From contig WNKP01000015.1 in NCBI GenBank assembly GCA_009797885.1, forward strand, positions 1-64,000: a DNA stretch of 64,000 nt. The letters run 5' to 3'. The stretch's first letter is position 1. The number at the start of each line of letters is the position of its first letter. Origin of the DNA: Flavobacteriaceae bacterium GF1 (GTDB lineage Bacteria > Bacteroidota > Bacteroidia > Flavobacteriales > Flavobacteriaceae). A model generated the notes under the pieces. The model had not been told where the DNA came from. It worked only from the letters and a program-made list of their open reading frames with translations, and did not search any database. Of the stretch, positions 182 to 892 are shown one piece after another. The translations under genes and the position numbers were made by a program.

Positions 182-257
182 TGGATTCCGCAATAAATGC
201 GGAATGACAGATTACGTATAACCTAATTTCTGTCATTCCTGCGAAGGCAGGAATCCA
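182..257. repeat. REP-like palindrome pair, copy 1
   Basis: Two small palindromes face each other. The one at 182-209 has arms TGGATTCCGC and GCGGAATGACA around a short A/T loop. The one at 231-257 has arms TGTCATTCCTGC and GCAGGAATCCA around GAAG. They share the outer arms TGGATTCC/GGAATGACA in opposite orientation, so the whole stretch can also fold as one long hairpin. The layout resembles bacterial REP/BIME units, but no RAYT transposase is present in the window. Confidence 0.75.
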
Positions 258-480: not shown

Positions 481-556
481 TGGATTCCGCAATAAATGCG
501 GAATGACAGATTACGTATAACACATTTTCTGTCATTCCTGCGAAGGCAGGAATCCA
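481..556. repeat. REP-like palindrome pair, copy 2
   Basis: This is the second copy of the pair at 182-257, with the same arms and nearly the same spacer. Its right member, 530-556, abuts the stop codon of the broken GIY-YIG gene. It is the exact reverse complement of the 27-base element at 866-892 on the far side of that gene. Confidence 0.75.
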
Positions 557-859
557 TTAATCAAACCAGTCGATAGCTAAATCGTTCCAATTTGGATTTT
601 CTTTTTCGATTAGATTGATTTTCCATTGCCGTTTCCATTTTTTCAATCTTTTCTCTCGTAGAATGGCATCATTCACGTATTGGTATTGCTCAAAGTAGAC
701 TAGTCTATTTAAACCGTATTTTTTGGTAAATCCCTCAACTAGTTTGTTCCTATGTTCCCAAACCCTCCTTTCCAAATCATTACTGATCCCAATATAGAGG
801 ATCCCATTCTTTTTATTGGTCAGAATGTAAACGTATTATTGGTGGTTAATTTTGAACAT
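557..859 (-). pseudogene. GIY-YIG nuclease family gene, interrupted by one stop codon
   Basis: Reading from an ATG at 859 gives a 100-codon frame typical in length for the small UhpB/YhbQ-like GIY-YIG proteins of Bacteroidota. Codon 8 is TAA, immediately before YVYILTNKKNG (residues 9-19) and LYIGISNDLERRVWEHR (21-37). Relatives usually have two tyrosines at this point, so a TAT/TAC to TAA change is the simplest reading. The rest of the frame is intact to FD at the C-terminus: the YVYIL and YIG halves of the signature, the ERR arginines and the later KYGLNRLVYFE segment. No ATG lies between the stop and the core, although TTG at 775 or CTG could start a shorter product lacking the active-site strand. 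The gene sits between perfect inverted 27-base repeats (530-556, 866-892). The family is clear; loss of function is inferred. Confidence 0.75.
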
Positions 860-865
860 TTATTG

Positions 866-892
866 TGGATTCCTGCCTTCGCAGGAATGACA
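866..892. repeat. REP-like palindrome, right inverted copy
   Basis: The 27 bases are the perfect reverse complement of 530-556. The core is palindromic (TTCCTGC, CTTC, GCAGGAA). It ends 7 bases upstream of the GIY-YIG start codon, so the gene is enclosed by two inverted copies. Confidence 0.85.

Follow-up and report, generated by a model that had tools for sequence, protein, structure and literature searches.

A short locus at the edge of a flavobacterial contig raises the question of whether a small GIY-YIG nuclease gene and the two inverted palindromic repeats that enclose it belong together as one element and, if they do, of what kind. The window, that is, the whole stretch of 64,000 nucleotides that was analysed, starts where a contig of the 5.28-Mb genome G000 ends, and all five tagged hairpins returned by a pattern scan of these 64 kb fall within its first 900 bases. 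The 27-mer TGTCATTCCTGCGAAGGCAGGAATCCA is present on the forward strand at 231-257 and 530-556, and as its exact reverse complement at 866-892. An earlier note, made from the letters of this DNA, had described the copies at 530-556 and 866-892 as exact reverse complements around the gene, and this proved correct: the stop codon of the GIY-YIG frame (557-559) directly adjoins the first of these identical 27-base hairpins, and its start ATG (857-859) lies 6 bases from the second. A comparison of positions 1-1200 with Rfam returned no match. The features of the locus are the following:

1-605, no strand: tandem duplication of about 300 bp with two hairpin types and a 3' stub of the nuclease gene, running off the contig end
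182-209, minus strand: hairpin of the second type, with a TGTC tag, a stem of 8 bp, a loop of 5 bases and a CCA tail, from the pattern scan and folding
231-257, plus strand: third exact copy of the 27-base hairpin, inside the tandem unit
481-508, minus strand: second hairpin type, a repeat of 182-209
530-556, plus strand: downstream terminal hairpin, with its TGTC tag outward and its CCA tail towards the gene
557-859, minus strand: gene for a small GIY-YIG nuclease, interrupted by TAA at 836-838 in its own frame
866-892, minus strand: upstream terminal hairpin, the exact inverse of 530-556

The residues encoded by 560-835 match the Pfam GIY-YIG family at 58.1 bits, where the cut-off is 22.6. 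The in-frame TAA at 836-838 is the eighth codon of the gene, and the window copy should therefore not yield a nuclease protein; an intact orthologue of 100 residues is found in a related genome (L043 in G004). Within the genus, internal stop codons occur in three of the five copies of clade A, to which the window gene belongs (G000, G006 and G007). The designation of the gene product as a homing-type nuclease, also made in the earlier note, was not supported. The protein is a stand-alone GIY-YIG domain whose closest solved structures by profile are single-domain UPF0213 proteins (PDB 1zg2, E 2.2e-15; PDB 1ywl, E 4.5e-12), entries whose titles name no repeat partner; the NCBIfam intron-endonuclease match reached 27.6 bits against a cut-off of 56.05, and no gene-split site was found among the sites compared.

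The tandem duplication next to the gene comprises 231 nt at 96% identity and 77 nt at 100%, with a spacing of about 300, and the 530-556 hairpin is part of it. We infer that the array is the debris of an internally deleted nuclease unit, because in the alignment the complete 300-bp unit (231-530) holds, besides the second hairpin type, a stub of the 3' end of the nuclease gene. The same unit is also present at the end of another contig of this genome (C9), behind a TypA gene. A second site of tandemly repeated hairpins was observed at G000:C33:277520-278115 (L021-L026), an array of units of about 190 bp with two hairpin types each.

Both hairpin types follow a plan that has been described before. 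CGTC-tagged REPs carry a CGTC or TGTC tag, an 8-bp stem starting with AT, a loop of 4 bases (family 1) or 5 bases (family 2) and a CCA tail, and occur in many copies (Di Nocera et al. 2013, PMC3733652). The hairpin TGTC-ATTCCTGC-GAAG-GCAGGAAT-CCA fits CGTC-1 and the hairpin TGTC-ATTCCGCA-TTTAT-TGCGGAAT-CCA fits CGTC-2. On folding, both formed 8 pairs, closing a loop of 4 bases in the first and of 5 in the second, with the CCA tail unpaired, and each of three hairpins tested folded better than all 200 of its shuffles. Exact copies of the 20-base core in the 5.28-Mb genome are limited to the three of the window, and the pattern TGGATTCC-N6..14-GGAATGACA occurs 26 times in the genome versus 0 times for a reversed-pattern control. 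Taken with the folds, these counts indicate that the hairpins are not a product of chance. With a looser pattern the genome holds 31 hairpins (1 in the control), a modest copy number compared with REPs present in 100 or more copies. Across the genus, looser hairpins number 31, 23 and 13 in the three orthologue-bearing genomes, versus 0-6 in the other eight. Palindromes also occur nested, one inside the loop of another (L305 and L299 when set against L020, and also L207, L182, L176 and L213); in G006 and G004 one TGTC-tagged palindrome sits in this way within a second, and at the orthologous site in G000 it is missing.

The association of the nuclease gene with such palindromes is real and systematic, and the window is a broken example of it. 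From 509 relatives of the gene the best 80, mostly from Flavobacteriaceae, were taken, and the 76 with at least 150 bp on both sides were searched for a palindrome of the form ATTCC...GGAAT within 200 bp of the gene (4 of the 80 were dropped for short flanks). A palindrome was found upstream in 63, downstream in 62 and on both sides in 52 of these 76 loci, versus 6/66 and 1/66 in control windows 1.1-1.3 kb away. The arrangement is oriented: the tag of the nearest upstream hairpin points outward in 56 loci and the opposite way in none (20 have no tagged hairpin), and downstream the counts are 49 outward, 10 opposite and 17 absent. Tagged hairpins stand on both sides in 44 loci, and in 38 of them both tags point outward. 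The units are also clear-edged. At 55 upstream sites TGTCATTCC is conserved at 1.7-2.0 bits per base (1.7-1.9 bits for the TGTC tag), and conservation ends at TGTC, the base before it having 0.7 bits and positions further out at most 0.6; the downstream edge is weaker, with 1.1-1.2 bits for GACA at 62 sites, then 0.8, 0.7 and at most 0.3. In 11 of the 44 two-hairpin loci the hairpins are exact mutual complements, with 4.9 expected and 11 reached by 4 of 2000 shuffles, and one locus (L207) has an identical 52-base hairpin version in both flanks. Similarly, when the second copy in G004, located between trpB and trpA, is compared with the G006 orthologue of the window copy, homology extends from the T of TGTC to the last C of TGGATTCC.

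Different clades of the enzyme are accompanied by different palindromes, as seen in the genus in the 30 of 42 matches that were inspected, and the palindrome changes with the protein. We compared protein identity with flank match in 10,535 locus pairs from 147 of 170 loci (13 were omitted for want of an ATG and the others for their short flanks), with the coding part removed and 196 pairs of alike outer context excluded. At 40-50% protein identity the median match was 8.0 upstream and 8.0 downstream, and above 80% it had risen to 23.0 and 22.0; in the same pairs, DNA 300-420 bp away stayed flat at 7.0-7.5. Because the flank match climbs with protein identity, these sequence comparisons suggest that the nuclease recognises the hairpin. 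An inverted match between the two flanks of one locus scored at least 12.5 in 18 of the 30 genus GIY-YIG loci, versus at most 12.0 for 52 large non-overlapping ORFs of the window; clade C is among the loci without such a match (7.0-9.5). Re-paired flanks of different clades gave a median of 8.0, a 95th percentile of 11.5 and a 99th of 19.5, the last because two clades own similar palindromes.

At the level of the family, 131 of 149 genomes contain a match to the GIY-YIG alignment, and 90 loci were taken, of which 88 remained after 2 were dropped for short flanks. Inverted cross-flank matches of at least 14 occurred in 43/88 loci, versus 0/28 far windows and 7% of re-pairings; direct matches of this size were equally common (47/88) because arrays contain both orientations, and in this wider set tags pointed both ways (upstream 51 outward and 36 inward, downstream 57 and 44). 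Repeated copies of another palindrome, AGATTTCTCAC...GTTCGAAATGAC, were observed in the flanks of L066 and L067, around another GIY-YIG clade.

Copy number across genera was compared with one genome per genus, the gene being counted as present at 66% identity or more, a cut picked after the identity table had been seen. The strict hairpin occurs in 12 of 13 gene-bearing genomes versus 29 of 136 others (Fisher p 5e-7), and at least five hairpins in 8/13 versus 10/136 (Fisher p 8e-6), both p values being computed over genera that are not independent; the mean is 9.5 strict hairpins with the gene and 0.96 without. The counts in the flanks show a strong enrichment of the element near GIY-YIG genes, and with the higher copy number in gene-bearing genomes they run counter to the refuting outcome named in the earlier note, a genome-wide element with no such enrichment. 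The exceptions are ten hairpin-rich genomes (at least five hairpins) without a close gene and one with the gene and zero hairpins (G097). They speak against a tight gene-hairpin rule, and could reflect gene loss after spread or use of the hairpin by another clade.

The nearest parallel in architecture is the REP-rayt-REP unit (Nunvar et al. 2010, PMC2817692), in which a small gene has an inverted REP on either side; these REPs are numerous in their genome and evolve together with the enzyme. The REP-rayt-REP unit shares with the present one a gene between two inverted, multi-copy hairpins and, in the coevolution of enzyme and repeat, a counterpart of the flank match that follows protein identity here. 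Unlike RAYT, however, the enzyme here is a GIY-YIG protein and not an HUH/Y1 tyrosine transposase (Pfam Transposase_17), and the head is TGTC rather than the GT(A/G)G of REPs. With CGTC REPs the window hairpins share the tag, the AT-starting 8-bp stem, the loop size, the CCA tail and the multi-copy state; the difference is the GIY-YIG gene between inverted copies, whereas the 2013 survey reports CGTC REPs without a dedicated transposase (PMC3733652). The word 'GIY-YIG' occurs 0 times in its text, and 'palindrom' 0 times in a 2006 survey of GIY-YIG proteins (PMC1564403). Among the literature matches listed, judged by title and the start of the abstract, no paper on a pairing of GIY-YIG proteins with REP-type repeats was found, nor, in the one collection searched, any paper joining dRS3 with GIY-YIG.

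We interpret the window locus, with a probability of about 0.6, as a decayed minimal unit of repeat and nuclease, similar in kind to REP/RAYT elements, whose GIY-YIG enzyme recognised the hairpin and spread it. The minimal unit with REP-like ends envisaged in the earlier note thus survives in part: it recurs in relatives, with a GIY-YIG protein where RAYT elements have a Y1 transposase, but the gene in the window is broken. An intact unit would read TGTC-hairpin-CCA, a GIY-YIG nuclease of about 100 residues, and TGG-hairpin-GACA. Its nuclease would recognise the tagged hairpin as formed by single-stranded DNA, either the lagging-strand template or an imported strand, and probably cut at or beside the tag. 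Cutting may then allow hairpins to be copied to new intergenic places, whether one at a time, in tail-to-tail pairs or on either side of the gene, so that the nuclease would be the driver of their spread. After death of the gene, as in the window, the hairpins would remain as passive repeats.

The nearest known biochemistry may be that of Ssn from Neisseria, reportedly a site-specific single-strand nuclease, a small GIY-YIG protein whose cognate repeat, NTS, is of the dRS3 type and present in many copies; the single-strand cutting assumed above is borrowed from this system. The likeness lies in a small stand-alone GIY-YIG protein (here the 100-residue orthologue) coupled to a multi-copy repeat. 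Ssn comes from another phylum, and the units described here may also differ from it in being boxed, with outward tags, tail-to-tail pairs and clade-specific palindromes. By analogy, the nuclease could act as a gatekeeper that cuts the hairpin in imported single-stranded DNA and tunes recombination, the hairpins being host sites that, like the gene, spread by homologous recombination or transfer and not through the enzyme. The 2013 survey lists dRS3 of Neisseria as a CGTC-1 repeat (PMC3733652), so the hairpin plan is common to dRS3 and the window hairpin, which favours this alternative.

Close relatives of the gene in genomes assigned to other phyla and rich in hairpins point the same way. Relatives were found in MAGs labelled Cloacimonadota, Syntrophales, Syntrophaceae, Alcanivoracaceae and Chloroflexi, in which binning errors are possible. 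Palindromes stand on both sides of the gene at L214, L220 and L221, downstream only at L222 and on neither side at L224, and the genomes of these five loci (in the order L214, L220, L221, L222, L224) hold 41, 8, 24, 42 and 142 loose hairpins; 8 were counted in a Flavobacteriales MAG (that of L200), and the reversed-pattern control gave 1 over all six. The five nucleases are 65-71% identical to one from Flavobacteriaceae, an observation that suggests either wide transfer or binning error. A gatekeeper role would nevertheless leave unexplained both the boxing of the gene by outward-pointing, clear-edged copies and the tail-to-tail pairs in tight operon junctions, and internal stops in three of the five clade-A genus copies are unlike a conserved host function. 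We consider it unlikely, though far from negligible.

The unit occurs in varied genomic contexts. When any shared neighbour is enough to join them, the 80 loci form 30 groups, of which 17 hold a single locus; when both neighbours must be shared, they form 59. These numbers are inflated because some loci have short flanks. Several junctions were followed within the genus; ROK, TypA, MetH, MetF, TrpG, TrpD, TrpB and TrpA were checked on the G000 copies and named elsewhere by likeness. Of 11 genomes compared between trpB and trpA, G005, G008, G009 and G010 have no gap; G001, G002 and G003 have 71-78 bp in which no unit was recognised; G000 and G006 have 76 bp that include what is left of a palindrome of another type; G004 has a clade-A unit; and G007 has part of a different GIY-YIG gene, accompanied by other palindromes. 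On the downstream side of ROK (ROK-typA), again in 11 genomes, the unit is present in G000, G004 and G006 (the join in G000 is inferred, since typA ends contig C9), hairpins without the gene in G005 and G008, another palindrome type in G007, a typA-like gene without a hairpin in G001 and G010, and another gene in G002, G003 and G009. The trpG-trpD junction is direct in G009 and G010 and holds a 61-bp tail-to-tail hairpin pair in G000 and G004; metH-metF is direct in G009 and holds a 60-bp pair of this kind in G000. Some copies are inherited in place, a point against the repeat-and-nuclease interpretation: the position of the clade-B gene is stable in G000, G004, G006 and G010.

Presence and absence at orthologous loci, a further expectation of the earlier note, was thus observed at these junctions, but never with base-exact boundaries. 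The joined flanks of seven hairpin sites, compared in the 11 genus genomes, gave no base-exact empty site or target duplication, and flanking bases differ as well; at the sole pair of high identity, the L027 site (G000/G006 versus G004), the difference exceeds the element, and some bases on its side have no match. At the divergence available, no base-exact excision was found, including at trpB-trpA and ROK-typA.

These comparisons also bear on a homing-like behaviour of the gene. Homing elements often carry GIY-YIG nucleases, and the enzyme might cut the short spacer of a tail-to-tail pair, with repair copying the gene in, so that the pair would be the empty site and hairpin-gene-hairpin the filled one. 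Short-spacer tail-to-tail pairs in the own genome (L006, L015, L020 and L028) indeed have the topology of the unit minus the gene, but no alternation of pair and gene was found at the seven hairpin sites or at trpB-trpA, and we judge this explanation distinctly improbable. That the hairpins are simply intergenic terminators or generic repeats with an incidental nearness to the gene is hardly credible: they do stand at gene ends, including those of genes without a nuclease, but palindromes are few in the far windows (6/66 and 1/66), window ORFs do not exceed 12.0 in the cross-flank match where 18/30 GIY-YIG loci reach at least 12.5, the flank match rises with protein identity, and no terminator is needed ahead of a gene.

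Returning to the repeat-and-nuclease unit, a broader form of this reading, which we put forward tentatively and at rather less than even odds, is that CGTC-type REPs, like several other palindrome families of Bacteroidota, have their dedicated mobilisers in small GIY-YIG nucleases. These would constitute a hydrolytic, transposition-like system, an analogue of RAYT/REPIN whose fold is unrelated. Its one element would exist in autonomous and non-autonomous forms, represented by gene units, by tail-to-tail pairs and by single hairpins, even loop-nested ones. The 2013 survey left open which enzyme, if any, serves CGTC REPs (PMC3733652), and the GIY-YIG gene between inverted copies is now a candidate, present in many members of one bacterial family and, by MAG labels, beyond. 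Since different enzyme clades go with different palindromes, ready enzyme-site pairs for specificity tests are at hand, and whether a GIY-YIG nuclease can spread DNA hairpins becomes directly testable.

Inserts of about 440 bp at metH-metF (G004, G006 and G007) and trpG-trpD (G006 and G007) resembled gene units in size, but the two tested (metH-metF of G004 and trpG-trpD of G006) encode PF05635 proteins. These inserts (L345, 234-620, L346 and L347 at metH-metF; L349, 286-639, and L350 at trpG-trpD) lie at junctions that are gapless in relatives, and the proteins encoded by L345 and L349 belong to 23S_rRNA_IVP (PF05635). By eye, short imperfect inverted repeats appear to lie around the metH-metF inserts, which are possibly, with those at trpG-trpD, another minimal mobile unit at hairpin-bearing junctions.
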